Assembly (NCBI GenBank): GCA_963565915.1
Contig: OY751486.1
Coordinates: 310,001 to 374,000, forward strand
Origin: Entoloma clypeatum
Taxonomy: Eukaryota; Basidiomycota; Agaricomycetes; Agaricales; Entolomataceae
Direction of reading: 5' to 3'
DNA: 64,000 nt
In this document: positions 6,201 through 64,000 of the stretch, piece after piece
How the letters are laid out: each line of letters opens with the position of its first letter
Numbering within the stretch: the stretch's first letter is position 1
Position numbers and translations under genes: made by a program
Notes under the pieces: generated by a model
What the model was told of the DNA's origin: nothing
Seen by the model: the letters and a program-made list of their open reading frames with translations, nothing else
Database searches by the model: none

Positions 6201-7962
6201 TGATGACGAACCACGAGTACCCACTCCGGAACCCGAGCAAGTACCAGATCGACCGATCAGGGAACGACGAGTCCGGAAAATGCCAGGAAGCATCTATGGG
6301 GAAGACACTCCAGCGTCTGATCTTGAAAAATTAGATCGAAGACGGAGATTGGGCGGTCAAACGGCATGGATGAATGACCTCCTGATGGAGGCAATATCAG
6401 TCCAAGTAGGCACCGTTGAAATGTCCCATAAAGACATATACCCTCTTCCAAATAAAGAAGACTGGTATGCGGCTGAACGTAAAGAGCTAGACATGCTCAA
6501 ACGCCGCGGGGTGATCACGGAGCTAGTACCCCTGCCTGAAGGGAGGAAAGCTCTAAGGAACAAATGGGTTTACAATGAAAAATCCGATGGGCGTCTGAAA
6601 GCGCGCCTCGTCGCAAAAGGATTCTCACAGGTAGAAGGGATCGACTTTGATCAAATCTTCTCACCAGTCGTGAGATATGAAACCGTCCGATTAATACTGG
6701 CATTGACAGCCCTTGAAGGGTGGTTCATGACACTTTTGGACGTCTCATCAGCCTTCCTCTATGGAACGCTCCGTGAGGTCATCTACATGCGACAGCCTGA
6801 GGGCTACGTAATAAAAGGGAAAGAACACCTCGTGTACCAACTATTCAAAGCTCTATATGGACTTAAGCAGGCCGCATTAGCCTGGTGGAGAGAACTTGAT
6901 TCCTCCATGAAAAAGCTCGGCTTTGTCCGGCTTCACTCCGATGCGGGAGTTTTTATTCACAAAAGTACCAACGGGGAAATTGTAATCGCCGTCATCTATG
7001 TCGACGACTCTGCTTTTCTCGGCACAAACCGGGAATACACGCTAGAGAAGAAGAAGGCCTTCATGGCAACATGGGAATGTAGGGACCTAGGGCACCTTGT
7101 GCCTGATGGGGAACCAAAAGAATTTCTCTCTATCCAAATAAGGCAACGTGGGAAGAGGATCTTCATTGATCAAGTACCTTACCTTGAGAAAATTTTGGCA
7201 CGCATGGGGATGAGCGAATCTAATGCCACCCATACCCCACTCCCTACGGGCTACAAACCCATGGCGTCCGAAGATGAACCCAATGCGGAACTTCGATCCA
7301 AGTACCAATCCGTCATCGGATCACTCCTATATCTGATGATTGGAACGAGGCCTGACATCTGCTTTGCTGTAATCAAAATGTCCCAATTTTCCGCAAATCC
7401 CACAAAACGCCATCTAGAGGTGGCTAGGGATATTTGCAGATATTTAAAGGCAACAAAAAATTACGCAATAATGTATGATGGGGACTCAGGGAAAGGGATC
7501 TATGCATTCACAGACTCCGACTGGGCGTCAGATGAGAACACGAGGAGGTCTACCACCGGCTTCTTCATATCACTGGCGTCTGGAGCAATAACATGGGTAT
7601 CATCGGCGCAGAAGACCATCGCCCTCTCTTCTACAGAAGCAGAGTATATGGCGCTATCAGATTGCAGTCGCGCAGCAACATGGCTGAGAAGCATGCTTGC
7701 CGAACTTGGAATGCAGATCGGATCAGTACCGATCTATGGAGATAACAACGGCTCCGTCTTTATCGCATCCAACCCTGTGACTGAGAAGCGATCCAAGCAC
7801 ATTGACGTGCGATTCCACTTCGTCAGAGAAAAAGTCTCCGAAGGAATAATTACGGTCGAATTCATTGAAGGAGTGAACAACCCCGCAGACCTTTTAACTA
7901 AGAATCTGGGAAAAATCCTCTTTTCCAAGTTTATCCCGTACTTCGGATTGATAAAAAACTAG
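3235..7962 (+). CDS. gag-pol: Copia-A Gag-Pol polyprotein
   Basis: The 1,575-residue single polyprotein makes the particle and all enzymes for copia replication in the cytoplasm and integration in the nucleus. In order: a UBN2/copia-type Gag (about 1-240), a basic linker without a CCHC knuckle, aspartic protease with DSGAS (506-510), the pre-integrase HHCC region (WHKRLGHP near 641, then CTGC), and integrase with catalytic D about 705, D about 767 and E about 802. Then come reverse transcriptase with LYGLKQ near 1208 and YVDD at 1255-1258, and RNase H with TDSDWASDE and STEAEYMAL. The integrase-before-RT order defines Ty1/copia. The start is the ATG in CAATGTC shortly after the predicted leader acceptor. 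No stop or frame break is seen. Confidence 0.96.
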   Translation: MSTSRSALDTIAPFDGIDYQSWAERVKSYLLHQGVWRIVSGDITRPEIADFTTTVSTPGPTAAAPPVLTTTVDQPGFRKEEKAWIRDDDVALGAIRLKVSEAIRRHIKDSTSALDAWKTLKDTYSKVSPAVIFGDFKAAATYKLSGRDPVPEIERLGSLFARLADSNFDVPDLMQAMILANAIPDAWSSLSTALFQVYDADDFTYKAVAESIISEYRRKYSIGSTRASNEQAKKISGTKRKGQDPKWEKQQKPSTSQNDADEQPNSGDPSTASEKKKGKGRWRNQKKSANTADNASDHVEETVEFVAPAIHLPPLPPPSFTTVTGRGKTLSTAQPDSARMQSLLQRMNPPPSQYTGLPSGKPSAWKKNDHVRKLARNIGARPSGSNLRILDTIIPEEDERPSKQRRVTPPLDDSLRMMDIDHQSERMGPEQFEDGLIELDGSSLSPLKLDQMGNANNHAQTFEYILASTNADSIDLFSDDLYKKYIKHFASCTHCKERERAQWILDSGASLHFTHEFKDFAYYRPLKAKRFVQTAEKGKKLEILGVGAVPVWHTLNGEIKTHLLRPVFYIPDMDTRLLSLGVFLNHGYKVEGMRGEINISKGQNKIQFSPHILGQTIYWLDTEIRYDQIHAISSEVTVETWHKRLGHPNDQALRKIPTSTKGVPKTLVREKSQESCTGCLKGKMPNQSYPNSMTRATKTFDLIHSDLKQISTASYHKYKYFLTFLDDFSSHVWVVLLRKKSDAITALRQFLAMIQNQFAATPKKWRVDGGGEFDEYKDVLADHGILIDITLPYQHQQNGRAERINRTLWEKSQALRFDACLPPMWWEFCLEHAAFLYNRTPMQRLEWKTPYFRVTNEIPDMSSVRVFGCQAYVYIPKEKRRNSLESRSRLMIYLGSKPGVKGYRFMDPETNTIFMGGKAIFDESKYPRCHIDPLPENHPEMENPEPADEFEDLIPGSNDDDSHNEIPHDPVPIEQDQPESDNELPANEPDDEPRVPTPEPEQVPDRPIRERRVRKMPGSIYGEDTPASDLEKLDRRRRLGGQTAWMNDLLMEAISVQVGTVEMSHKDIYPLPNKEDWYAAERKELDMLKRRGVITELVPLPEGRKALRNKWVYNEKSDGRLKARLVAKGFSQVEGIDFDQIFSPVVRYETVRLILALTALEGWFMTLLDVSSAFLYGTLREVIYMRQPEGYVIKGKEHLVYQLFKALYGLKQAALAWWRELDSSMKKLGFVRLHSDAGVFIHKSTNGEIVIAVIYVDDSAFLGTNREYTLEKKKAFMATWECRDLGHLVPDGEPKEFLSIQIRQRGKRIFIDQVPYLEKILARMGMSESNATHTPLPTGYKPMASEDEPNAELRSKYQSVIGSLLYLMIGTRPDICFAVIKMSQFSANPTKRHLEVARDICRYLKATKNYAIMYDGDSGKGIYAFTDSDWASDENTRRSTTGFFISLASGAITWVSSAQKTIALSSTEAEYMALSDCSRAATWLRSMLAELGMQIGSVPIYGDNNGSVFIASNPVTEKRSKHIDVRFHFVREKVSEGIITVEFIEGVNNPADLLTKNLGKILFSKFIPYFGLIKN

Positions 7963-14499: not shown

Positions 14500-14529
14500 T
14501 AGGGCAATCGGTCCACTGTGGATAGTGTT

Positions 14530-15033
14530 CAAGGGTTCAGTCCAGTCTGGTTTTTTGACCAAAAAATTGATGAACTGGAGACTGGCAGTTCATTTTTTTT
14601 TCTCAAAGTCTGAAAAAACTGGACTGGACTGGTAAAGACTGGTTTAAATCAATTTAAACTGGTAAAATCCTCAACCATCTATAAACCTACCAAAAGCCTG
14701 TTTTTTCAAATCAAAAACTTGAAAATATACTCAATCTGTTATCAATAACATGTTTCTCAAGCATTTTGGATATAAACTCTTGTAAGTATGATTGAAAACT
14801 GTATAAAAGAACATCTTTGCCCATAAAAGCACAGTTTTTGAAAGAATATATAGTCAAAAACTGGAACCAGTTCATATTTTCCAGACCCAAAACTAGAACT
14901 GGGGGTGAACCAGTCCAATTTTCTTCCAAATTTGGAGAGACTGGAGACTGGTTGAGCTCAAAATCAGTGAGACCTGAACTGCCAGTTCAGGTCTCTTCCA
15001 GTCCAGTCCAGTCCAGTTCAGGTTCATTTTCCA
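14530..15033. repeat. CTGGA-rich degenerate inverted repeat
   Basis: The left side (about 14530-14660) reads repeatedly ACTGGACTGG and GAACTGGAGACTGG. The right side (about 14880-15033) carries the complement CCAGTCCAGTCCAGT. Inside the right side is a perfect 27-nt palindrome at 14969-14995 (13-bp arms, one central base). This looks like a decayed foldback or MITE-like element; no target duplication was found. Confidence 0.45.
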
Positions 15034-20632: not shown

Positions 20633-23600
20633 ATGCCCGCTTCTGTCGCCGTTCTCTCAGTCGCGGCCGACGCCATCCACGACCTCGAAGGCCGTGAAGC
20701 ACTGTCTGGACTATCGGCTCGTAAGTTCATTTTTCTTCTTTTCTTAGTAGTTGAACGGCGTTAATGTTTCCGGCGAGCAGTGTTCACGAAATGCAAAGAG
20801 TCGATACATGAAGGTCACCGGCTTGAAAATATCTCATGGCGGTTGTGGCATCGCGAGTTGGCACTGTCTGCATCAGGAGAAAGACAGCTTGAAACTTCAA
20901 ACGAGAATGGCCCCCGATCGACCGATACGAACTATTTCGAGAAAGACCCATGTCTGTTCGATGAGAACGTACTACCGGCGGATGAAGTTTCTCCCTCCTG
21001 GATACCCAGTGAGCACTTCATACCTCACCATCTCATGGGAATGCCGTGCGAACGGGGCAGGCACTTCTGCTTCTCGTTGTAACTCGGTCCCAGAACCTAG
21101 CGGACTCGAAAAACTAATATATCCTCCTCACAGACTTTTCGCCATCGGTGCTGGCCCGTACTGCATTGTCGCCGCCGCCTTTTACTTCGCGTCGAAACTC
21201 ATCTGTTGGTCAGATGATCGTGGACATACTCCTCGCAACCACTCTCTCACCACTCCACCCCATGTCGAGTTCCTCCAAGAACAGATCGACCCTCTCGCTC
21301 TTGCGTCCAATAACAACCTGTCTCCCAGCCCGCCCTTCCTCAGCTCCAGTGGCTGCACCCACGCATGCGCCTGTGGAATCGCACCAGGGGGTCCCGCCTT
21401 CAGCCATGTATCAACCTCTCATCGTTTCCACTGCATCGACAGCACCCCTTGGAGAGCCTGATCACATATGCCCCTTACGCGTCCCTTTATCCCCTGTTGC
21501 CGTCGCTGATGGGAAGTCACTTCGCCCATCCGCGGTCGATTCCGAGGCAGAGGTAAGTCTCCGCGTAATTCAAAAGAATGATGGACTAATATATTTCGCT
21601 AGTTAATTGCGATCCTTATGACCCCCACAGCTACTCCAACCCCTCCTTTCCCAGATCCGGAGTTGAAGATCCAGGTTTCAACCCAAACGGAGTGTTCTAC
21701 CCCGCAATTGCTTCCACAGCCACCACATGCGGAACCTGACCTGCCCCAAGCAGCCAGTGAAGTCCCTATCACACCTCCGCCTTTGCCGGCCCCTGTAACG
21801 TTTCAGAACCCCGCCATCGCCGCAACATCCCCATTCATCTTACAGTCTGTGGCACCGATGCCAACCCGCCATCCGTTGCTTCCACGCCTCGTAATTGCCC
21901 AACCCACGCCGGGAGCGACACCCCACCCCACCCCGCCTGCGACGCCTCGTCTGGGCCCTCGCAGGTCCGAGAAGTTGGAGGCCGCGTTGACCGACAACGA
22001 TGCCGGGGGACTGTTGACGCCTTCTGAGAGCTTGTTCTCGGGTATCACAGAGACAAGCCCATTGAGCCTTGATGGGGGACAGATCTGCTCCGCAGCCGCT
22101 GAGGAACGCCACTCTGACATCTACCCCCCATCACCTCACGCTTCCAACTTAACCACATATACCCACCAACCTACTCCAACGTCTCAAGTGGGTCGTGGTC
22201 ATGTGAGAAAATCGAATGCGTCTAGCGCCCCGCTTGGGGACAACGCGACGCAGAACAGGAATGTCGGTACTGCGAAGAACCAGGTGAGGGGCGCAGCAAG
22301 GTCCACTATGACTGGACGAATCGAAAGGGCAAGAGCACCAGCAGGAGCAGGGGCCCTGCTTGTCCTGGCATTAGTGGGCTGACGATAACGATGACGAATG
22401 CAGTCGTTCTGAATAGTCCCGTGGGTGCGACAGGAGGAGCCGCAGCTCGCGGGGCGCATGCGACAGAGAAGACGAAGAAGGCTGGGGTGGTGCGTGGGGC
22501 AATAAGGAGCACCGGGAAGAGGCCCGGGTTGGCTGTCGTCGGCATCAGGAGGGCGTTATCTGCGGGGCGTGTCGTTGGCACTGGGCACGCCAATCATGAA
22601 GGACGGTCTGGCCCACGAGGGAAGGAAATGGTGTCTTTTGTTGCCGAAGAAGCTGCCACTGTTGCCTCCGACGGCGGGAAGAAGGCCGTTCATGCTGGAG
22701 GGGAAGATGACGACAATGGAGACTGGGCTAGCGAGTAAATGAGTGGCGAAGAAGAGCGACCTAAGGTCCCTGCTAGATCCCCGCCGGCACAGTCCCTTCA
22801 GAACCGCGGAGCGAGCGGGGGACTGCAGCAACAATATCAAGCCCAACTTCACCACCACCATCTTCAGCAGCCCCGTCATGCGAAACGCCTGCAAGCTGAG
22901 GCTCAGGCCCATCACGCCCAACATACTATCGAACAGGTGGTGCTCGAGGCTGAACACCTCCGCGATATGTTCGTGAGGAAACCTGTCCCGAGCTCTGAGC
23001 AGCTGGCTGCGATGAGAGCCAAGGGTGTCGGCCTTCTGACGCAGCTGATGAATCCTGACCCGCGAATCTTCCTCGTTGGGCATCCATATAAGAGGGGTTT
23101 CAGTTCAGAAGAGCTTGCTTTCGGGGGAGGTCAGGGAGGAGCGACACGAGTCGTGAGTGAGGGCAGAATTGTTCTTCATCCTATGGACACTGAACGGGAT
23201 CCTCAGACGAGACGGGATGTGATTGGGGAGGGATGCACGCCGCGAGGACTTCCACCGATGGGTGGTATTGGCGCCCACAGGTTGAAGAGTTCAGCGGCGG
23301 TTCCTGTCGCTTCACAGGTGCAGGTTGGGAGCGTCGTCGCGGTTCAGGCGATCAGGAGCAATGGCACCGGCCTCAATGCAAGTGGGAACGGAGGCTCGAC
23401 AAGCAACATCCGTTCCCCCAAGATGAACGGGATGAGTGGGGGATACCGACCTCGCGGACGACCTGCGGACCAGGAACTCGAAGACACGGAGAGTGAGAGC
23501 GGGGGTGAGGGCGGGGACGGGAAAGGGAAGAATTCGATTTTGTTGTCGAGGAGCGTCGCACAGGAAAAGCTGATGGCGCTGGCGATGAGGAGGGGGATCA

Positions 23601-24193
23601 AGCCGAGTACGGGAACAAATGAGAATGCAGGGGCAAGTGGAGGGGAAACGAAGCTGGGGAAGGGGCAGGAGGGACATGAATCGCAACCTCAGCAGGATGC
23701 TCACGATCGAACCTTCCAACAACTTTCGCATCTCTTCCAGCAGCACTTCCATATCCATCGCGCCGCAAGTGCTGCCCCAGCTCCCATCCCCGTTGGCCAT
23801 CCGTACAACCTCCCTCCGCCCGCGCCACCCTCGACGCCTCGCACTACGCGCCGCCTCATGCTGCAGACGGAGATGTCTGAGAGCTTGCGGCGAAACTTGC
23901 TTTGGGAGCGTCAAGTCAGCAAGATGAACGTAGCAGGCTTCAGACGCATGAATTCGAGCGGGAACACATCTGGCTCTGGCCCTGCAAGATGGGGGAAGAT
24001 TCTGGGTGGGGGAGTACAGCCGCTGACGGAGTTGCCAGACAACGTCGTCCGGTTGACGGCGAAGAAGGGGAAAGGCATCGCTGAAGAGAAGAGAGATGAG
24101 CCCCCGCAAGTGTTGGATGCCACGGAGAATGAAAGGCGGGCATTGGCGAGGACGAAGAGCTGGGCAAATGATTTCCATTATTCGGGGTGGTGA
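20633..24193 (+). CDS. AreA GATA-like N-domain / DUF3295 protein (probable nitrogen-response regulator, 6 exons)
   Basis: The proposed model is join of 20633-20720, 20781-21008, 21134-21552, 21603-22202, 22259-22734 and 22777-24193, 1,075 residues, all joins in frame. Near the N-terminus LFTKCKESIHEGHRLENISW followed by RLWHREL fits PF08550, the AreA GATA-like domain also found in yeast Mks1 and Reg1-type regulators. The last exon fits DUF3295: LLTQLMNPDPRIFLVGHPYK, RRNLLWERQ and the ending ARTKSWANDFHYSGW. The middle is Pro/Ser-rich and disordered, with a His/Gln tract near the start of exon 6. Family knowledge suggests a role in nitrogen or carbon signalling rather than direct DNA binding, since no CX2C GATA finger is seen. 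The exon 4-5 join and the 42-bp last intron are the weak points. Confidence 0.75.
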
Positions 24194-24514
24194 GGTCAGG
24201 TCAGTTGAGGTCTCTTGCCCCAAGAACACATTTTGAATTTTGGTCTTTTCTTTGTTTCTTGGGCTGGGTTCCTAATTTATGGTTTACTTATCATGTACAT
24301 ACAACTTAGAACAGGTACCCCTAACCTTGCGTGCAAGGTATCTCCTCTGAAATTATGCCTAGCCTTCCGGCAAATGCCAAATGAGATAATCATGCCCCTT
24401 TTAGGTTTACGAGCATTTAGACCCGTGCTTCGCAACGCAGCGTCGTCTCTGCACGGGATTATGAGATATTTAACATGAATTAATTTAAATTAAATGGGAG
24501 ATATACATTACTGT
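24194..24514. other. 3' flank of the AreA-like gene
   Basis: AT-rich sequence after the stop codon with no further ORF or repeat recognised; presumably 3' UTR and spacer. Confidence 0.4.
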
Positions 24515-24826
24515 ACACAGTGTGTTATGGCGCTTGGACCTGCGGCCCTCGCTTGTAGAGAAGTGTTGTATGTAATAGTATCATCAGCAGATACAACATT
24601 TTACACAATGTGCTATGGCGCTCGGACCTGCGGCCCTCGCTTGTAGAGAAGTGTTGTATGTAATAGTATCATCAGCAGATACAACATTTTACACAATGTG
24701 CTATGGTGCTTGGACCTGCGGCCCTCGCTTGTAGAGAAGTGGGGTATGTAATAATATCATCAGTAGTTACAATATGTGTCATGGCACTCAGACCTGTGGC
24801 CCTCACTTGAGAGAAGTCACCTTCAC
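24515..24826. repeat. 88-bp minisatellite, about 3.5 copies
   Basis: Units start near 24521, 24609, 24697 and 24775. Each contains TATGG(C/T)(G/A)CT(T/C)(G/A)GACCTG(C/T)GGCC followed by CATCAGCAG-like sequence. The first two periods are exactly 88 bp and the last is shortened by about 10 bp. The first copies are almost identical and the last is diverged. Confidence 0.85.
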
Positions 24827-33076: not shown

Positions 33077-34179
33077 TGATACGACCGCTGCGCGGCTGTG
33101 CGTGAAAATTCACTTGTCCCACAGTTTTGTCAATATAAGAATATAATGCTGGCCCCTTCACAAACATATTCTATTGGAACTGATGGTACTACTGGCTACC
33201 TAAGAGTGTCTAAATACCACTGGACCACCTTTGGTCATGATCTTGGAAACAGTCACTTTGAGGGCTTAACCAAAACTTGACACAAAACACTTTATTTCTC
33301 AATGGATAAGACCATTGAGGGGACCAGTCATTAATAAGAATATTCTATGACATATCACCCTATCCAATCACTACTATTGACTATGGACAATCTGAGGGCT
33401 CGGGGGACTCATAATAATGAGCAGGATGCCCAGCATCACAGTGTACGACGCGCGATCACAGATGCCGTGATGCCGATCTGTGTGACTTACCAGAAATAGA
33501 CCGAACCCTGGAAACGGGTTCCCGGTCCGTGACGCTTCAGACCCTTGATCAATGACAACCGGGAACTTGATTGATCGATCGACAACATCAATATTGATGC
33601 GGCGTTCTAGAATGCTCGCGAAACGACGCGTTCTTGTCGCTCCACTCCGCCAGGGCCGGTTGCCCTCTCGACACCTCGGAAATATGTTTAAAGGACCCCT
33701 GTGAATATTTGGACCATGCCCAAATAACAGATACCCTGGAAACCGATTTGTTATGGACATATCTTGTGATAAACCTTATATATATATTTCATCTCTTGTC
33801 ATGTATAAAAACTGTAGTTTCCTGCCATGTACTGTAGATTAGAAAGGCCCCCCAGCCAGATCCAATCCCTCTCTCTCTCTCAGTGATTGATTGAGTGGTT
33901 AGATTTTCTAAGTCTCATCCAAAGGGAGTCTCAGTGAACCCCGAGGAAACTCGATCTCATATTATTATTTTATTTGATCAAAACCCTTGATTGTCGACGC
34001 GCGACCTCGCGACGACTTTCTACAAAAGACAAACGAGTCTAACTACTTACGAAATAAGTGGTTAAGTTCCCGCCACCCTTGAACTAATTGTTGAGAGTGT
34101 TGTTGGGTGTTTGAGGTGTTTGTAGAGCTCTGACCAGAGTCTCTCGCATTTTCGGCGCTCGTCACAAACTCGCTTCTCA
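33077..34179 (+). repeat. Element E 5' LTR
   Basis: 1,103 bp, beginning TGATACGACC and ending GCTTCTCA (TG/CA ends). TATATATATA and TATAAAA occur at about 33776-33806. Small ORFs inside are repeated identically in the other LTR and need not be genes. Confidence 0.93.
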
Positions 34180-34180
34180 T

Positions 34181-34197
34181 CTGGAGCCCACCGCGAG
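34181..34197 (+). promoter_or_regulatory. Element E primer binding site
   Basis: TGGAGCCCACCGCGAGG starts two bases after the LTR. Read as a tRNA 3' end it gives CCA, discriminator U, a 7-nt acceptor strand and a 5-nt T-stem strand, which fits tRNA geometry. U at position 73 is typical of tRNA-Cys among eukaryotic tRNAs, so tRNA-Cys is a candidate primer. Confidence 0.6.
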
Positions 34198-34481
34198 GGG
34201 TGGTTTCAGTAGTTGACCCGTTTGCCTTCCAATTTCCTCCGTGGAGATTGTACCCCCCGTCCCATACCATCGCGCTTTGTTGTTTGAGACGCGAAGTGCC
34301 GTACAGTTGATTATTTGACTGTTCGTCTCGCCTGAAAAGAAAAGACAACATACCCTTGACGAGACTTAGGAATATCTGGTATATTCCAAACCCACGCCGT
34401 CGAACCAATTTCCCGTTCGACCGCAATAAAATCCAAAAGACCCTTTTGAGTCCGTTCTGCGGACTCCGAAACAAAAACCCC

Positions 34482-36413
34482 ATGACCAGACCACGCCGCG
34501 TTGATAAACCCAGCAACCCCGTTGCACCCGAACCGCCGCCTTGGAAACTTGGTGAAAGTTCGTCGTCGAAACTTGCGCCGAAATCCGCAATTTTTGAGCC
34601 CCTACCTGAGACATCCGAACGAGACCCCGACCCAGAGTCAGAAGCTACCGAAATGGCTTCTGAATCACCCACAAAAGGCATGCCCAATAGACGCGACAAC
34701 AAGGCCCCGTTCTATGACAGGAATAGGCCTGTGGAATTACTCCGTTATATTGAGGATGTCATGAAAGAGTTGGTACGGACCGGTGTCTCGAGTGACCAAG
34801 AAATGAAAGATTGGCTAAGATATTATGCCGATCAGCGTACTGCAGATGAATGGACCGTTTTGGAGACTTACCCACCGGAAGGCGGTTCTTTCGAAGCCTT
34901 CATAGAGGAGCTCGTTAGCCACTACCCCGAGGCTACAGATAGTCTTGAAGGGTCGATCGTGCGCCTGGACAAATTGTGCGCCAAGTCGACGCCTTTGACG
35001 AACGAGTACCTGTCGGTAGTCTTAGAATTTATCAGATCATTTAAATTCGAAGGACGAAGACTCTTACGCGGTGGCTGTATCTCGAATCGTGAGATCGCTG
35101 CTAAGTTCCTGAATTGCCTTGACCCCGAATTGAAGAGGACCGTGGTTTGGCAAGTATCTCAACTGTCTTTGAATGGCGCTCGCGCGTCTGACGAGGGAGA
35201 AAAGAAAGCACGTCACCACACTGACCCGATTGAGTTTGAAACCTTGCTCAAGGTCTCAGAACATTTGGCACGGTCGGCTGACAGTTATAATGCTGTTTCG
35301 AGTAGTAATACATCTGGTTTGACCACCAGATCTATCAATAAAGTTCAGCATACGATTTTGCAACGACCTACGGAGCCTGCTACCTCGTCCGACCGGATGG
35401 TGCAGCTCCTCGAGGACTTGAGTGAGTCGATGGCGAGGAACACGGACATCCTCGTGAATATGTCTAAGGAAAACAGTCAGCATCACGACGAAACGGCGAA
35501 GTCGTTAGAAAAGATGACTACGTTGTTGTTGAGTTCGTCGCCCTGCAAAGACAAAGGGAATAAGATCCTCCTGTCGAGCCAACCGTCTTGGCGAAAATGC
35601 TACTACTGTTGGGGCCCTGGACACTTCATCGCGGATTGTCAATTCTTGACGGCGGACATACTAGAAGGAAAAGTTGAAGCTCACGCGAGAATTGACTCAG
35701 AGCATTTCCCAAAGGAACCCGCGAACCTGTCGCCGAAAGACCGATTACGTGAACTATGGAAAAATAAGACGAAGTGTTTTATTGACAATTTACCTGAGGA
35801 CGGAATAATTGACCTTATTCCGAGCAGTATAGTCAATCTTCGGAATCGGAATGAACAAAAACATAAACCGTGCTATGTTGAAGACATGCCTGATGATGGA
35901 TTCGTGGACCTTGCGCCGAAAACCCTGGCCACACTCCAATCCCATCGGAATCTAGACCGAGCACCGTTCTTTGTTGACTCGGACATACCCGAGGACGGAT
36001 TCGTTGAGTTAGTCCCGAATGACCTGGTCACACTTCAATGTCATGAGAAGCGAGACCACACACCGTTGTATGTTGAGGATATACCGGAAGATGGATTTGT
36101 TGATCTCATGCCTAACGGCATGATCACGCTCCAGTCAAATTCGAATGTACGAGATAAAGAAAATGAACTTATCTCGGAATTAAAAGAAAAGGCAAGACGC
36201 GCGGCTGAAGAACGCGATATGTGGAAAGCGGTGACGGATACTGGACAACTTGAAAAGAACTCGTCAGTACCGATTGCTCCCCAAGTACCGCCGAGCATAC
36301 CTCAGTCGACTGCTCAGTCCACTCAAGCTACGGAATTCATGACTATGTTAGCCAAAATGATGAGCCCTTCGACGCAGGAATGTGTCGAGAGGGTTTCCCA
36401 AGGTTCTCAATAG
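34482..36413 (+). CDS. gag: Element E Gag with zinc knuckle and four tandem PEDG repeats
   Basis: 643 residues from the ATG at 34482; the frame is open further upstream but only with a TTG. The N-terminus is Pro/Ser-rich. The middle looks like a capsid region (PVELLRYIEDVMKELV, WTVLETYPPEGG, LNCLDPELKRTVVWQ). One CCHC knuckle, CYYCWGPGHFIADC, is at about 373-386. Then four tandem units of about 32 residues (about 430-550) share [YF][VI][ED]-x-[IML]-P-[ED]-D-G-[FI]-[VI]-[DE]-L-x-P. A charged coiled-coil-like stretch and a Gln/Ser/Thr-rich tail follow. The role of the repeats is unknown; they could bind a host factor or the partner's proteins. Codons show no damage. Confidence 0.85.
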   Translation: MTRPRRVDKPSNPVAPEPPPWKLGESSSSKLAPKSAIFEPLPETSERDPDPESEATEMASESPTKGMPNRRDNKAPFYDRNRPVELLRYIEDVMKELVRTGVSSDQEMKDWLRYYADQRTADEWTVLETYPPEGGSFEAFIEELVSHYPEATDSLEGSIVRLDKLCAKSTPLTNEYLSVVLEFIRSFKFEGRRLLRGGCISNREIAAKFLNCLDPELKRTVVWQVSQLSLNGARASDEGEKKARHHTDPIEFETLLKVSEHLARSADSYNAVSSSNTSGLTTRSINKVQHTILQRPTEPATSSDRMVQLLEDLSESMARNTDILVNMSKENSQHHDETAKSLEKMTTLLLSSSPCKDKGNKILLSSQPSWRKCYYCWGPGHFIADCQFLTADILEGKVEAHARIDSEHFPKEPANLSPKDRLRELWKNKTKCFIDNLPEDGIIDLIPSSIVNLRNRNEQKHKPCYVEDMPDDGFVDLAPKTLATLQSHRNLDRAPFFVDSDIPEDGFVELVPNDLVTLQCHEKRDHTPLYVEDIPEDGFVDLMPNGMITLQSNSNVRDKENELISELKEKARRAAEERDMWKAVTDTGQLEKNSSVPIAPQVPPSIPQSTAQSTQATEFMTMLAKMMSPSTQECVERVSQGSQ

Positions 36414-36416
36414 TTG

Positions 36417-39016
36417 CAACCCGCGCTCAGAAAAGAGCCGACGGAGTTGCATGAGGGTTGATGAATCTTGGAAAATTGAGTATTAATAATAATTGTACCT
36501 GAAAAGAGAATCCAAGATGGATCTAGACGAGGCCGTTGAGGACTCAATGAACTTGATGAACTCGGAAATGACTCACCGTTCGAGACATACGAGCGTGAAA
36601 CGGTACCCTCTGAAAGGTTAGGACAAGATCGCCATGAAAACACGATTTGAATCTAAAAGGAATTGGACGACCCACCTCGTTAATCAGAGAATCGAGGTCT
36701 CATGGCACAGACTGCCCAGAGACGCCTCGCAACTGGATTCAAGGAAAAGGGAGTTCAGAATCAGATCTACGCGAATGCACCGTGTCTTGAGGACTTAGTA
36801 ACAGTGGCGTTCCGCCAAGGATCTCGAACGAGCGGCCTAGACACGTCATCGTCAAAAAGATTGACCTGCAAATGGGCAGACACATATCAGGTCTTGAGGA
36901 CCATGGAAGCATGTTCGTCGAGATTGACAGGACCAGAAAGTCATGATAGGACATCTGACTTGAGAACGTTAGACGCGTCCCACAGGATGACAATGGTACG
37001 CACTTGGATAATGAACCTAGACATGAGCAACAGAGAAGCATAGTGAACATCCACCTTGACATCCTTAACTTGGATCTCAGCTCGTCGCTGGTAGCGTCGT
37101 AGTATGAAGGAAACTGTACATTGTGACTACGGGATGCGACATATCCGTAATTGCTAGTACTACTGGTAACTACGAAATAGAGTGCCGTTTAGGGACCCTC
37201 CGGAGAGTCCTGTCAAGCACATCATGGTTGAGCATCCCGTTTGCAAGAAAGAAAAATCTGACAAGGCTCACCGTTCAACATGACGGCGTGGAGCCGAAAG
37301 CCCATCAACCTCCACGAAAACGTTGATAACGGAAGGGCTTGACCGATGTCTCTGAACGACGAGAGGGACACTCTGGTACCTTGAAATGCCAAAGACGCCC
37401 CGCCGATGATCTGGAACCAAAACATATTGACCGTGGAATGGACAGTAATCGAGACGAACCCTACTCGCCCTGAAATCCCACGTATTATGACGGAAACGAA
37501 ACGCCCGAGACCGTTGGACGGACAGAAACTGAGGTTCGCATGACTGTGCATCCTCGAGCTGTAGAAAGGCGTGATACGGCTATAAAACGATGATGCTCGA
37601 TTTATGGTGGACGTAGCTCGTTGGGAATGGCCGTGAAGCGTCGTCTCCCAGTGTAGTACCACACAAAACGGCTCGGACTTGCAGCCGGAGACGCCCATGG
37701 ACGAGGACTCGAGCCTGAGCCTAAAACGCCAAGCTTCGTCAACGGTTGACTCGGAGAGTCAATTGTATTGTCTGGGGAGGGATATACATGAGTTACATAC
37801 CTGGTGTTGCCCTTTCACCCATAAGATTTCGAGACCTTTGAAATTAATAAGTCGTGCTCGAGATTCTGAACCGTCGAGAGCCCGTTAATCGACAGCGCCT
37901 TCGAATGATGATAATCAATGCCGACCAATGAAAAGAAAAGACTTACCGTTGAATGAACAAGACGCGGCCGGGAACGGCTGGCGCGCGACGAAAATTTCGC
38001 GATTTCGGCGTTCAAGTCGACGATTGCGGCGATCAAACGATCTAGACACGAAACGATATCAGAGAATTTTGAGAGCAATGAAATAAAAGAACTTACCGAA
38101 TGACCCCTGCCCCAACGTTGTGGTCGTGCCCCGGCGTTTCGGCCCCACGGACTGGATGGATCAGAGGCGACGCCTAGTCGAGCCTCGAAATGGGCGACAC
38201 CTGGTCTAACCCAACAACGATCGCGCTGATCGAGCCAGAATACGCCATCGCTTGGAAGAGCGTGCCCTTTCGCGATCTTGAAGTGGACAGATGACACCGT
38301 TTCGGAGTGAGCAAGAACAGCCTACGCCAGGACGGGCCGTTAGGGAGACAAGATGTGTCTTCCGAGTCGAAACGAGGAACCTACGCATAGAACGGTGCCC
38401 ACGGGCGAAATTAGGTGCGCTGAAACGATACAAGACTTACCGATCATCGAGAACGTACCATGTGCCAACGCCCTGGACCCTACTCGATGATTGGTGCCAA
38501 ATTTGAAAAAGACTTGCCGAAACAGACTTGACGGTCCGTTCTTGAGGTCTTACATGATCCTAAAGGCTTAAATAAAAGAATAGAAATGAAATGATAAGAC
38601 ACCACTTACTTGAGGGCGTCGAACGAAACTCGACGGAGCGAGGACGGAAGCAAAGAGACAAAGACTTGTTGAAGACTTGCCGCCTCTCATTGTTGATGTA
38701 GTGACCGAATCAACGGATGACCAATCGATCACATGATGCACGCGACGCGTCTACAGATGTAACGGGTGTCAAGCAGGGGACAGTCACATACGCTCGACTG
38801 AAGGCGTTGAGTTGTTGCAACTCACCCACGGTCCGCATAGACACTGGAATGCAATGCCGGCACTCCGTCGTTTGCTGGTCTGCCCACGCGGACATGTAAA
38901 TGAAGGAAAACTGCGAAATAAAAAGAATAAAATAAAATTTGAGGAACCTGATGACCCGAAAAATAGGACCATACCCTGAAATGATTGGGGACAATCGATT
39001 TTAAGTGTGGGGGAGA
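36417..39016. other. Element E internal region without long ORF
   Basis: 2.6 kb with no ORF above about 160 codons. No YxDD, DSG, DDE or zinc motifs were found on either strand. On the minus strand four strong GTAAGT donors lie at about 37939-38609, some with a pyrimidine-rich AG downstream. They could mark antisense exons (see findings). A polypurine tract ends the region. Confidence 0.5.
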
Positions 39017-40119
39017 TGATACGACCGCTGCGCGGCTGTGCGTGAAAATTCACTTGTCCCACAGTTTTGTCAATATAAGAATATAATGCTGGCCCCTTCA
39101 CAAACATATTCTATTGGAACTGATGGTACTACTGGCTACCTAAGAGTGTCTAAATACCACTGGACCACCTTTGGTCATGATCTTGGAAACAGTCACTTTG
39201 AGGGCTTAACCAAAACTTGACACAAAACACTTTATTTCTCAATGGATAAGACCATTGAGGGGACCAGTCATTAATAAGAATATTCTATGACATATCACCC
39301 TATCCAATCACTACTATTGACTATGGACAATCTGAGGGCTCGGGGGACTCATAATAATGAGCAGGATGCCCAGCATCACAGTGTACGACGCGCGATCACA
39401 GATGCCGTGATGCCGATCTGTGTGACTTACCAGAAATAGACCGAACCCTGGAAACGGGTTCCCGGTCCGTGACGCTTCAGACCCTTGATCAATGACAACC
39501 GGGAACTTGATTGATCGATCGACAACATCAATATTGATGCGGCGTTCTAGAATGCTCGCGAAACGACGCGTTCTTGTCGCTCCACTCCGCCAGGGCCGGT
39601 TGCCCTCTCGACACCTCGGAAATATGTTTAAAGGACCCCTGTGAATATTTGGACCATGCCCAAATAACAGATACCCTGGAAACCGATTTGTTATGGACAT
39701 ATCTTGTGATAAACCTTATATATATATTTCATCTCTTGTCATGTATAAAAACTGTAGTTTCCTGCCATGTACTGTAGATTAGAAAGGCCCCCCAGCCAGA
39801 TCCAATCCCTCTCTCTCTCTCAGTGATTGATTGAGTGGTTAGATTTTCTAAGTCTCATCCAAAGGGAGTCTCAGTGAACCCCGAGGAAACTCGATCTCAT
39901 ATTATTATTTTATTTGATCAAAACCCTTGATTGTCGACGCGCGACCTCGCGACGACTTTCTACAAAAGACAAACGAGTCTAACTACTTACGAAATAAGTG
40001 GTTAAGTTCCCGCCACCCTTGAACTAATTGTTGAGAGTGTTGTTGGGTGTTTGAGGTGTTTGTAGAGCTCTGACCAGAGTCTCTCGCATTTTCGGCGCTC
40101 GTCACAAACTCGCTTCTCA
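39017..40119 (+). repeat. Element E 3' LTR
   Basis: 1,103 bp, identical to the 5' LTR at every position compared line by line. CCGG follows. Confidence 0.93.
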
Positions 40120-58835: not shown

Positions 58836-59480
58836 GTATTCCATAGTTTGTAGAAATGCTCCTCATTTGCATTGTGCGCTGTTGTATTATACTACATGTG
58901 ATGTTTTTCTGATTTCATGCAAACTGTTATTTATTTTATCTTGTGCTTCCAAGAAAGATAGGCATGATTTTATCACTATGCTCCACACCAATAATATGGA
59001 CTCAATTCAATGAATTTCTGTGCAGAACCTATGAATTGCTTCTCCAGGTAACTCCAACAGTCTGGTATGCATATTCCTACTCAGAAAGCCTTTAAACAAT
59101 CTACTGATTCACTTATATTATATATTGTTCATTACAAGTTGGTCTAGTATGTGACAATATGTCCCACACTGCTCCCGTGCCTGCTTGATGCAGATGTGCA
59201 GATGTGCATGTGCGGGAATGTGGGAACGGACATTGAGCAATGCACCGAACAATGTGTGGGAATCAAGTGATGTTGCGCTTGCCCAGCAGTCATTTGAGCT
59301 GGTGCTTACTCAGCTGGACCCTTTTGCTCAAATTTTGACTTTTGTCGGATATTTGTGCAATTCACATGACATCCACATGCAGTCGCGGATTTTTGGACGA
59401 CATTGACCTGCATAATGCCTACACAGCCTTTTTACTGAGGTTCATTGCTTGTTGATAAACAAGCTTCTTGGTGATCACCA
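58836..59480. other. Intergenic AT-rich sequence
   Basis: No ORF with protein-like features, no repeat found. It leads into the hairpin array. Confidence 0.4.
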
Positions 59481-59784
59481 CCACCTTTCGAGGCTCTTCC
59501 ATGAGCCTCGTCTCTCGTAGCTCGACGCCTACCTGCTTGATGACCGGGGCACGTTCAGTGCCGAGCGACGTTAGTTGCCCACAGCCATCAAGATTTGCGG
59601 GGAGTGCAATTTGACGAGGGACGAGGGCAATTTTGCCCTCGGTGATGGGTTCTGGCAGCTGTCGTGATGCGGCAGCTTTGGAGGGTGCATGCATGGGGCA
59701 TGCAAAGATGCATAGCATCTTCCTTGGTACCAGGGAATGGCACAATGCGTGCCGTTTTGTCATTTGTTAACCAATTTTTCATTT

Positions 59785-60330
59785 GAGGGACATTGTCCCT
59801 CCAGGATTTCTTTTTTCATTGTTGGTTGACTACTGGGAGTCGACCCTGTCTTGTTAAGCATCGGCGAGGAGAGCTTCAGCTTGTCTTCATCAACTGCTTC
59901 TTCATTCGCCAACGCCGCCCCATTATTGCCGGTGTTCGTCATCAATAGACGACTCCTGGTCGAGGGGCGATTGTTGTCCCTCCATTCTCGTCGGTCGGCC
60001 ACCTTCACGTCGACCCTGTTCCATTACGCATCGACAAGAGGAGCTTCGGCTCGTCCTCGTCAATGCCTTCGACATCCTGCCACGCCGTCCCAATGCCGGC
60101 GTTTGTCATCGTTCAGACGACTCCTGGTCGAGGGATGTACATTGTCCCTCCGTCTTTTCCTCGGTCAACTCCTTTGAGTCGACCTCGTCCGGCTACGCCT
60201 CGAGGAGGGCAAGCTTCGGCTCGACCTCCCGTCGACTTCAACCTCTGCCAACGCCATCCAAATGCTGGCGTTTCGTTGCAGTGACGCACGGTTGGCGTCT
60301 ATGACCAGTGCCGGGCACTGGTCGGTTGGG
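59785..60330 (+). repeat. Degenerate tandem repeat of about 170-180 bp, three copies
   Basis: Each unit has, in order, a GTCCCTCC hairpin, a GTCGACC block, GAGCTTCGGCTC, CCAACGCC or CCGTCCCAATGCCGG, and ACGACTCCTGGTCGAGG. GTCCCTC recurs near 59795, 59976 and 60143. Copies are diverged in sequence but keep paired stems. Confidence 0.6.
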
Positions 60331-61210
60331 GATGCACAATTTGCGCGTCTCCACGTCCGAGAAGGTACATGGTACCTTCCTCCTGTAGTGGGGACGACGC
60401 CATGGGCGTTGTTTGTCATCATTGACGATATTTTGTTTGAGGGACGACTGTCGTCCCTCTAGGTTCCTCGTTTCCTATCGGTCGACTCATTTGAGTCAAC
60501 CTCGAGTCCTTGCATGTCAACGAGAATGAGCTTCGGCTCGTACTAGTGTTGACTGCTCTGATATCCCCTAACACCATCCAACTGCCGGGTCGACTGGGTT
60601 TACGAAGGTACATGGTACCTTCTATGTCAAATGGGGACGGCGCATGAGGCGTCATCTGTCATTAATTAATGACTCTCATTTGGGGGCGCTGGTCGTCCCC
60701 CTAGGTCGTATCATCTTTCCAAACTGACTCATGAGTCAGTTTCTCTACGACCCAGTGCAGGGAACATCTTTGTTGTTCGTGATGCATGTAGGGGAAGTTG
60801 GGGCAATGGTTACCCCATTTCCTCCCCTTCTTGCTTCATGAAGCAAATCTTGAGGGTCCCGAAATTGGCCCTCTTTTTGCCAGTCGGGGACATTCATTTT
60901 CCCCTGTCGTGTTTCGCGACTTTTTGTTTTCCAAACGACATGTTGTTGCTTTGGTTACTGGGCAATATTACATCTCCAGTTTTGTTGGGAAGATCTTTTG
61001 AGCTCCCCAGGTCCGTTTTCTGGACTCCAATGTTCTTTTCTCATGTACTGGCTTCATGTCAGTACTCATCTCCGTTTCAGGCTCAGATGAGCCTAAAGCT
61101 TTCGGAGGTTCTATTGAACCTTCTTGACCTCTCTGTGGCATTTTCACGCCATTCGGTAATTGTTACCGAACTTTTTCGTGAACAACTGGTGTCGTCCTAT
61201 ATCTCTATTT

Positions 61211-61279
61211 AACCAAATCAATTTGGTTAACAATTCTATCATAACCAAATCAATTTGGTTAACAATTCTATCATAACCA
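61211..61279 (+). repeat. 32-bp direct repeat containing a palindrome
   Basis: AACCAAATCAATTTGGTT plus AACAATTCTATCAT occurs twice in full (61211-61242 and 61243-61274), and a third copy starts with ATAACCAA. Each unit contains a perfect 8-bp hairpin with a 2-nt loop. Confidence 0.85.
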
Positions 61280-64000
61280 AGGGGTCTCTTGACTCCTCCA
61301 TGGTTGACGATGACCACATCTTTGATCATTCTCATCATGGATGACTCTTGAGTCATCCTTGGTGCAGGTTCTTTCAAACCTGCTTGGTTTGGTAGCACAT
61401 TTTCTTCAAATGTGCAAGGTGTATTGACACCTTGTATATTACGAAGTGGTGCTGTTGTACCACCTGTCGTTTGACAACTATTGTGGAAATGACACCTTTC
61501 GTTCCCACTGGTTCTCATGTTTCACGGTCATCTCTGTCTGTGCAGGTTTATTTAAACCTGCTTGTTCTGATTTTGGGGTGGTTTTGTGGGACAATTATGT
61601 TCCCATTTCCTCCCCTTCTTGCTTCGTACCACGATGAAGCATATCAGAGTTCCTGTGAGGCAATTTCCCTCACTCGTCCTCTGGGGATAATTTATCCCTC
61701 GTCGTTTGCAATGACCTTTTCTATTCTTTCATATGATGGTATCTTTGTATGCCATCTTTATATCCATCATATTGGGACTTATATTTCCCAAGTCGTGGTC
61801 CATGACTTTTTGTTCAACAAACAACATATGTTTGTTTTTCATTGGCGAGACTTTTGCCAAGTATATTATCTTTGGCGAGCTTAGCTTGCCAAGTCGTTTG
61901 TTCATTTCTGGGGTTTGCGAGAATCCCCATGTTCACATGAACCTATCATAAACAACATGTTGTCGTTTCTATCTTTCTTCGGCATGAACATCTTTCGTGC
62001 CTTTCATATGATGGTATCTCTGTATGCCATCTATGTACATGTTGTATGGGGACATATAATCCCCATGTCGCAGTTCGCGACTCTTAGTTCAATGAACTAT
62101 ATTCATTGTTGTTGGCGAGATCTTTCGCCACCTATACTTTCTTTGGCAAGCTTAGCTCGCCGTATTGTCAGTTCATTTTTGGGGTTCACGTTGATCCCCA
62201 TGTCATTCACGTGAATGACAACTATAGCAGTCTTTGTTACTGATTCTATATGAGACAACAACTTATTGTTATCGTCAACTGTATTTTCTTAAATGACATA
62301 TTGTTGTTTCTACTTTACTTTCGATGGTGTTGGTTCATCGACTTCACACCGTCCTTTCTGTTTTGTTGCCAGAAGGTACATGGTACCTTCCTCATTTATT
62401 GTAGATAGCGCTATCACCATCTATAGTCTCTTTGTGACTATTTCGTAGTATGGCCTTAGAGACCGTAAGTTGGGAAGGGAAAAATCTCGCGTTGCGGGAT
62501 TATGTGGTGTGATATAGGTGCCGTTGTCACCTATTCATTGGGGGAGGTGTCCCCTCCTCTGCCCCCTTCCAAAATGTTCCGTGGGTTCCTTGGAATCCCT
62601 GCTTCCCCCTTTCTTGCTTCGTTTATAATGAAACAAATTATTGTGGGGGGTTTGAGGTTTTTGAGACACTATAATTGTCTTGGAGGATGATTTCTATCCT
62701 CCACAAAATGTGGAAATGACAGACTCAGTGTCCGTCTATTCTGTCAGATGGGCCTCTATGAGTCTCCATCCATTACGAATTATATGGAGGACACTCGTGG
62801 TCCTCCCTCGTCTTCTTTGGCAGGACTTTTCAGTGCCCTGCATGTCGCCAACTTTATTCTTGGCGAAATTTGACCTTTCGAGGCAGACATAGTCACCTCA
62901 GTGTTTACGGAGGACACTTTTGTCCGTCCTTTTGTCATTTCGCGGCAGTCACTTTTAGTGGGCTGCCTGTCGCCGACTTTATGTTCGGCGCAATTTGATT
63001 CCAATGTGGTGTCTGTTACCACAGTTTTTGACAAACCGTCGCAGACGACGACAATAACTTTGTCGTCTACTTTCGCAACCTTAGCGACATTTGTCACTGC
63101 AGTTCCAGCATCTATTGCCGTAACTTTAGTTTCTCCATGGACAATCTTTATATCATCCATTCACTTGCAACAACAATTGTTGTTGCTGTAGCAGCTACTG
63201 TAGCTGCTGGTTCTCGGCTTTCGCAGATGACATCCATAACATCTCTTGTTGATTTATTGCAGACGACAACTTTGTTGTCTTCCTTCGCAACTTGTGATTA
63301 TATTATTTCCGTGGACAACTTTCATGTCATCCACTTTGTCATTTGCGACAACTATATTTGTTGTCGCAGCAGCTCCAATAGCTGTTGATTCTTTTCTATC
63401 GCAGATGACAACCTTGTCGTCTAGTTTACAATTTTTAATGACATTTTTTGTCATTGTTGCGGCACACGCTGCCTCAGGGTTTCTACTCTCTTGGACAACA
63501 TTATTCTCATCCGTATTCTTGTGTTCATAATGTTCCGACCTGTGGACATCTTGTTTTTTGGATGTGACTATTTGAAGCACCAAACGAACTTCACAAGTTC
63601 GTTCTCCAGTGGTCATGGCTTGACCACTCTGCTTCAATATCAAGCAGACAATCTTTTCATTACACATAGAGCACAATTTTGTGCTCTTGTTGTCAGTCGA
63701 CACATGTTGTCGACTTTCGCTACTCTTGCGACGTTGATGGCGGTGTTTTCGTCGCCGTCTCTTCTTCTCTACTGTGACAGAGTCTTCTGTACTCTGTCTC
63801 TCTTTCTCATTGTCTCTTTGACGGTGAATATTTTGCTGTCAATTATCATTCTCGCCTGGGTTATGTTGACCCAGATGTTTGCATTTATTTCAATGATCTT
63901 GTTGTCATCAATAATGAACCTGTTGTTCATTACTCGCAGTCCGATGTGGTCTATTTGACCCATCATTTCTGGACAATGAGATCTTTTCATCTTGAGGGTT

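Follow-up and report, generated by a model that had tools for sequence, protein, structure and literature searches.

The right-hand end of the window, a 64,000-nucleotide stretch of Entoloma clypeatum DNA (contig OY751486.1, here C2, positions 310001-374000, in a genome of 60 Mb on 20 contigs), lies with very high confidence inside a dispersed long terminal repeat (LTR) retrotransposon, the interior of which is a string of short perfect hairpins. Judged by its sequence, the element is best read as a non-autonomous LTR retrotransposon without recognised gag, pol or other protein. This identity is well supported; as to function, we infer, with a probability of about 0.45, that the RNA of the element has been selected as an unbranched string of short stem-loops. 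Positions beyond the window are given on C2 or as L009 positions (L009:2330 is C2:376330).

The hairpin array and the element that carries it

The initial annotation of the window had described 35 or more micro-hairpins between 59485 and the window end as far above chance. Counting non-overlapping perfect stems with loops of 0-8 bases in 59485-63960, with 500 dinucleotide-preserving shuffles as controls, gave 41 stems of at least 7 bp against a shuffle mean of 1.63, 53 of at least 6 bp against 6.92 (maximum 15) and 30 of at least 8 bp against 0.40 (maximum 3). The claim is borne out, since no shuffle ever exceeded 7 stems of at least 7 bp, and each of the seven hairpins named at the outset has a perfect stem of 8-11 bp and a loop of 0-7 bases. 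In the rest of the window (1-59000; 55 overlapping stretches of equal length) stems of at least 7 bp average 4.1, with a maximum of 10, and a scan in 1-kb steps finds the excess starting at 59-60 kb and lasting up to the window end. The array thus fills the region proposed for it, but its bounds had to be moved: it starts at 59440 and continues past the window to an LTR ending at C2:376330. Over the 6.71 kb of 59440-66149, with loops of up to 12 bases allowed, the count is 102 stems 6-11 bp long (mean 16.1, maximum 22 in 30 shuffles), which take up 30% of the bases and peak in length at 8 bp (33/102). When the best copy of the element is taken at each place, 168 hairpin positions with a stem of at least 6 bp are obtained, with 54 at 6 bp, a class swollen by chance matches at the threshold length, and a second peak of 49 at 8 bp; only 3 of the 168 exceed 10 bp, a shortness that makes a Dicer-type small-RNA precursor, one of the roles first suggested, unlikely. 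At the 114 positions with a stem of at least 7 bp, a stem of at least 5 bp is found at the same centre in, on average, 75% of the covering copies. Rfam (at the gathering threshold), tRNA and tandem-repeat scans offered no explanation for the array.

The array had been thought to belong to no named element, but it forms the interior of a family of LTR retroelements whose copies are flanked by 5-bp target-site duplications. Searching the genome with 501 bases of the array finds 16 places, the source of the probe among them, at an identity of at least 88%; the DNA around nine of these places was stitched for copy comparison, and in all nine regions the hairpin excess tracks the shared repeat (500-base bins). 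Beyond the shared repeat, hairpin-rich DNA occurs at L009:3.5-4.5 kb, adjoining the element in C2, and, more mildly, within an insertion in the copy on contig C9. The right end of the element in C2 is a unit of ~181 bp (TGTAAC...GTTACA), which also stands at the opposite end of other copies, followed there by TATCCCCCTTCAAG and further hairpins. The unit has 33 matches in the genome, itself included, and the stretch adjoining the left LTR has 25. Target-site duplications of 5 bp (GTATT, AGCAT, CTGGA, AGAGG and CGTTC) flank all five copies with both ends read, and it is because of these and the terminal repeats that the object is identified as an LTR retroelement. The direct terminal repeats have TG..CA termini, one of the five left LTRs beginning with TA instead of TG; the LTR pairs within single copies are 94.5-97.8% identical, and 37 of the 39 differences in the five copies are transitions. 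The window copy is truncated on the left at 59440, so that the left LTR and ~387 bases are missing (measured against the copy at C1:3.86M), and several other copies are interrupted by later insertions. With its missing left part supplied from the C1 copy, the C2 element would have an internal region of ~7.1 kb.

The sense strand of the element is probably the minus strand of the window, because a polypurine tract, GAAGGGGGATA (plus-strand counterpart CTTAAAAAA), immediately precedes the minus-strand 3' LTR and because this strand is rich in A. The tract recurs, with variants, in the other left ends listed. The AT skew of the minus strand of the array is 0.27, compared with 0.09-0.24, all A-rich, on the coding strands of eight other retroelement stretches in the window. 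The orientation is probable rather than certain because no TGG-type primer-binding site was seen beside either LTR in a reading by eye, for which no search program was used.

Variation among copies and growth of the array

A first estimate of stem divergence was inflated, as intact hairpins had been picked in one copy, and the later tests were built to reduce this bias. Hairpins were chosen in C2 and variation was counted in the other copies, at non-CpG columns and leaving aside those in which C2 is the odd one out; variants common to at least two copies were taken as mostly older than insertion. By this count 64 of 938 stem columns, 312 of 2654 spacer columns and 38 of 273 loop columns are variable. 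Shared variants occupy 8/938, 75/2654 and 9/273 columns respectively, that is, 3.3-fold fewer in stems than in spacers (odds ratio (OR) 0.30, p 0.0002), while variants of single copies show a weaker effect (6.0% in stems, 8.9% in spacers, p 0.004). Under the strictest condition, in which C2 differs from at most one of the other copies, the OR for stems is 0.62 (p 0.0017). Since shared variants are scarcer in stems than in spacers, the stems were held while the element was mobile, and the loops were not, in agreement with the initial proposal that it is the paired state that has been kept. At CpG columns pairwise variation reaches 0.36-0.41 (stems 0.36, spacers 0.40), against 0.03-0.07 in other columns, as would be expected of methylated or RIP-like (repeat-induced point mutation) decay of repeats after insertion. 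An apparent covariation among copies, with 42 compensated cells, was rejected, as it falls almost wholly in CpG columns, where the CpGs of the two arms decay independently.

Older divergence can be followed inside the array, where 21 alignments of internal duplicates, 63-74% identical and counted in both directions, were compared. A hairpin is found at the homologous place of the duplicate in 32 of 43 cases; with shifted targets the count falls to 1-8 of 43. For stems of at least 5 bp, 14 compensated pairs were counted, compared with 6.1 +- 2.1 in re-paired controls (maximum 13 of 500); for stems of at least 6 bp there were 9 against 4.7 +- 1.8, with controls reaching 10.

The stems had been called mutually different, which is correct only in part: 13 duplicated blocks at E<=1e-3 lie inside the array, in the window copy one hairpin occurs in three copies and another twice in tandem, and the left arms are related to each other. 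Close pairs among left arms number 33 of 5151, against 5.6 in shuffled arms (maximum 10 in 15 shuffles), and GAGG, AGGT, GAAG and GACA are over-represented in them. Whole modules, made up of a hairpin with its spacer and ~28, 32 or 38 bases long, have been gained or lost among the copies. The duplicated blocks and this presence or absence of modules show that the array has grown at least partly by module duplication followed by divergence. Indels were also considered as inverted copies of their flanks, which mostly they are not.

The left (5') arms are 60% purine, 68 hairpins being purine-rich and 15 pyrimidine-rich (50.2 +- 5.4%, maximum 63.5%, in 60 shuffles with few hairpins in each), and A and G are frequent at their outer positions; the plus-strand spacers are 59% pyrimidine. 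Among 44 unrelated arms, 23 are purine-rich and 11 pyrimidine-rich. The purine-rich 5' arms reported at the outset are therefore real, but a purine-rich 5' arm reads identically from either strand and so gives the array no direction alone.

Proposed selection on a folded RNA and its rivals

Folding was computed in 22 windows of 300 bases, with 15 shuffles each, on both strands. The folding-energy excess (MFED) is 36.7% on the plus and 40.1% on the minus strand, with negative z in 22/22 windows on both, the minus strand being slightly ahead (t 1.7); the copia and gypsy stretches of the window give -2 to 5%. In the C2 copy the pairs enclosing 0, 1 and 2 bases are complementary in 9/29, 7/27 and 15/29 cases, where 0.24 is expected by chance, and in nine pooled, non-independent stretches in 36/144, 38/136 and 59/144, while pairs further out are complementary at 0.6-0.8. 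The near-chance pairing of the innermost positions, those enclosing 0-1 base, speaks for a folded single strand.

The structured RNA that was among the first ideas remains the best reading. The genomic RNA would be an unbranched chain of ~100 stem-loops of 6-11 bp separated by A-rich spacers, in which hairpin-plus-spacer modules duplicate and then diverge, their stems being maintained by selection on the folded RNA. Such an element would borrow the Gag and reverse transcriptase of another element and would benefit from a compact, packable RNA; the fold may also shield the RNA against antisense RNA and nucleases, with stems that remain below Dicer length, and the hairpins would decay once inserted. 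Selection of this kind would account for the constraint on stems, their limited length, the tendency to form loops and the A-rich unpaired sense strand.

Several observations weigh against this reading. The loop rule is soft, as with outer pairs taken from loop 8 or 10 the innermost pair still matches at 0.43-0.45 (n=30 and 11), and span-40 pairing is stronger on the antisense strand (-87.7 per 300 bases) than on the sense strand (-83.4). It is because of the soft loop tendency and an antisense fold of equal strength that the probability is set no higher. The G-U share of the sense strand, 0.066, is below that of random letters (0.122), and perfect stems of at least 6 bp are denser in the element (15.2 per kb) than in 20 random sequences selected to equal folding energy (5.8 per kb). 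Wobble of the kind that a sense RNA could bear is not favoured: stems of at least 8 pairs with one and two wobbles number 13+3 for A-C, which is G-U on the minus strand, and 24+7 for G-T, the shuffle expectation being 1.75+1.35 and 2.2+3.25. Outside CpG columns the copies hardly ever differ by a compensated pair (one column), and another pol-less LTR element of the window (33077-39316) has no hairpin excess in its non-coding 2.6 kb. Selection on RNA also leaves the purine-rich 5' arm unexplained, and both this asymmetry and the scarcity of wobble fit template switching better. The balance of wobbles and mismatches was also used in an attempt to tell which strand is the RNA, and was discarded, the counts being about equal or against the sense strand (G-T 10, A-C 7; shared wobbles G-T 19, A-C 10).

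The main rival is a molecular drive, in which, as the retroelement is copied, a polymerase switches template within short imperfect inverted repeats and rewrites one arm from the other, so that a long stretch free of coding would become perfect micro-hairpins unaided, no function being needed; it retains the early suggestion that the array is the trace of a hairpin-forming mutation process. It appears rather unlikely, though it ranks directly after RNA selection and the two may have acted jointly. The mostly strict Watson-Crick stems, with no preference for sense-strand wobble, are what such rewriting would leave, and right arms resemble the spacers in composition while left arms resemble their complement (60% vs 41% purine), as if one arm had been copied; yet a founder effect may explain the asymmetry, the arms being related (the imbalance among unrelated arms is 23 to 11), and right arms do not track the composition of the spacer sequence near them (rho 0.06, p 0.55). 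Template switching in yeast homogenises short arms and flips spacers, according to the excerpts of PMC8604942 used here. In the array a single copy has 13 bases of one hairpin inverted, and two copies share a flipped loop that is less clear; the clear flip is, however, private to its copy, and flip look-alikes arise in 2 of 1222 control segments. Two further look-alikes were not counted, at 61877 (a near-palindrome with two changed sites) and at C1b 7351 (ambiguous). The compensated changes in the older internal duplicates also suit the drive, which nevertheless predicts many compensated pairs, whereas at non-CpG shared alternatives 2 are paired and 19 unpaired. In addition, the copia and gypsy polyproteins of the window show no hairpin excess.

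A slightly less likely variant is that the array was written by the element's own cycle of copying: repeated arm-to-arm switching on the nascent sense strand would make and perfect short inverted repeats, condensing an element relieved of coding into a row of hairpins that may later have been co-opted as RNA armour. It is improbable that the array is a decayed tandem array, in which one or a few captured hairpins were multiplied by duplication and simply inherited, with neither selection nor drive. The duplicate blocks, the gain and loss of modules and the related arms would all follow from such a history, which is weakened by the rarity of shared variants in stems relative to both spacers and loops and by the internal duplicates, where homologous hairpins persist at 63-74% identity and compensation exceeds the controls. 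Marginally less probable is a special case of RNA selection, in which the Gag of a helper would bind every stem-loop as a degenerate site, so that packaging or dimer sites are dispersed along the RNA. An element without its own proteins is by necessity packaged in trans, and arms that are degenerate yet related to each other would suit this role; against it, the loops, often the point of contact, are the most variable part, and no helper was identified among those of the 33 LTR matches, a minority, whose interiors were read. Least probable of all is a protein-coding minus-strand region whose repeats fold by accident: the array does hold minus-strand open reading frames (ORFs) of 258, 194 and 171 amino acids (longest in 200 shuffles, 210), but coding on either strand was rejected in the absence of a consistent codon-phase signal, with no consistent third-position excess in ten minus-strand ORFs of at least 95 amino acids, no Pfam family at cut-off in six array ORFs of the C2 copy (best DUF6072, 17.6 of 27 bits) and no match at E<=1 among 5.8 billion proteins for the 170-residue ORF, the sole one searched.

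Neighbouring repeats, known systems and meaning

Features of the element and its hairpin array, with window positions unless prefixed L009
Feature	Position	Strand or place	Basis or remark
LTR element part in window, hairpin array	59440..64000	minus (inferred sense)	copy alignments, ends, hairpin density
Hairpin GAGGGACA t TGTCCCTC, 8 bp	59785..59801		hairpin scan
Hairpin, 10 bp, apparent loop 1	60303..60323		hairpin scan
Hairpin GAAGGTAC atg GTACCTTC	60361..60379		identical ones at 60604-60622 and 62372-62390
Hairpin, 11 bp, apparent loop 0, longest of window copy	60721..60742		hairpin scan
Tandem pair of hairpin-plus-spacer module, period 32	61209..61261		32-base deletion in 6/8 other stitched copies
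Hairpin, 9 bp, loop 2	61339..61358		hairpin scan
Hairpin with 13 consecutive bases inverted in one other copy (C5:1.09M)	61364..61383		copy comparison
Diverged internal duplicate of 62001-62215, 74% identity	61726..61941		internal alignment
Hairpin, 10 bp, apparent loop 0	62201..62220		hairpin scan
Site of a 22-56-base insert related to neighbouring hairpin module	62299..62306		5/8 other stitched copies; coverage incomplete
Diverged internal duplicate of 63294-63452, 68% identity	63120..63279		internal alignment
Hairpin, 10 bp, apparent loop 0	63167..63186		hairpin scan
Hairpin, 9 bp, loop 7	63344..63368		hairpin scan
Hairpin, 8 bp, loop 7	63776..63798		hairpin scan
Array continuation beyond window, to C2:376149	up to L009:2149		copy alignments
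Right LTR	L009:2150-2330	directly after array	copy ends

Just outside the right LTR, L009:2333-5250 (C2:376333-379250) holds the remnant of a gypsy-like gag/protease region, with a Retrotrans_gag match (E 0.0027) that falls short of the cut-off. Two of its ORFs contain 6 stems of at least 7 bp, against 0.9 from synonymous shuffles, and a third contains none; its MFED is 20% on both strands. Relatives of the remnant, 66-81% identical, lie at three other places in the genome, and in one of them, of which 566 bases were read, there are 4 stems of at least 6 bp against 1.4 in shuffles. Within the remnant, L009:2995-3426 is a 432-base MITE-like element (miniature inverted-repeat transposable element) with a long inverted repeat, which matches itself in both orientations at 78% and has dozens of matches in the genome. 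The insertion in the C9 copy (L012:2500-4000, C9:3610000-3611500) carries 5 stems of at least 6 bp per 500 bases, and no relation to the array was seen. The pol-less element at 33077-39316 is probably a very young LTR element, the compared 300-base repeat units being 100% identical; it has no ORF large enough for pol, but a gag-like one of 685 residues, in which a zinc knuckle scores below its cut-off. In this gag-like ORF 8 stems reach 7 bp or more, where synonymous shuffles give 1.25 (maximum 5 of 100), at an MFED of only 3-5%.

A palindrome-rich repeat of another kind, with a CCAGT/ACTGG motif, occupies 14500-15000 and L028:7400-7900 and includes a 13-bp hairpin at 14969-14995. Approximately three tandem copies of an 88-base unit lie at 24514-24772, part of the unit recurring, as seen by eye, in L026 at ~6180-6560. 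Relatives of the ORF at 22739-24193 number 238 at E<=1e-5, nearly all of the 120 listed carrying DUF3295; Amanita rubescens (43%) is among the matches listed, and the named relatives are Agaricomycetes, which points to a mushroom-forming fungus as the probable host.

Classical large retrotransposon derivatives (LARDs) have kilobase-long LTRs, whereas the LTRs of the element described here measure just ~181 bp, and its host is a fungus. The long interior without coding capacity that defines LARDs is found here (six C2 ORFs scanned); the very long LTRs are not. LARDs such as Sukkula share with the element LTR ends, a long interior without recognised proteins and a presumed dependence on helpers, and both LARDs and terminal-repeat retrotransposons in miniature (TRIMs) are said to specify well-conserved RNA structures (PMC7215508; this and the other sources below are likewise cited from excerpts). 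An interior made of a string of micro-hairpins is not described for LARDs in those excerpts. TRIMs have similarly short LTRs and no proteins but almost no internal domain, whereas that of the element spans ~7 kb (PMC7215508). The element is thus nearest to LARDs, yet its LTRs are TRIM-sized.

In its succession of largely unbranched stem-loops, its short stems and its high MFED the element also resembles the genome-scale ordered RNA structure (GORS) of RNA viruses (PMC7642675), which, in contrast to a DNA-borne LTR element, is described from RNA virus genomes with coding sequence. The excerpts of that source give an MFED of ~15% for SARS-CoV-2 and 23.4% for the highest vertebrate RNA virus; the 37-40% of the element exceeds these values, although windows and shuffles differ, and, unlike in GORS, its hairpin positions are common to the copies (PMC7642675). 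Quasipalindrome or template-switch mutation yields similar short perfect inverted repeats and flipped spacers, but as single-site events and not as a kilobase array (PMC8604942, PMC3820800). Non-coding short inverted repeats of proteobacteria are more conserved than their surroundings (PMC8604942). No description of such an element was found among the titles and abstract openings listed from the openly licensed literature of PubMed Central (PMC), which does not show its absence from print.

If the reading of a selected RNA fold is true, a mobile element can spread without any recognised gene, and the product that is maintained is a genome-length fold, with a folding excess that would be larger than in the vertebrate RNA viruses surveyed in the excerpts of PMC7642675. 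The element offers a single object in which to test two ideas: that parasitic RNA is protected or packaged by pervasive structure, and that template switching by itself, with no selection, can turn a sequence into hairpins.

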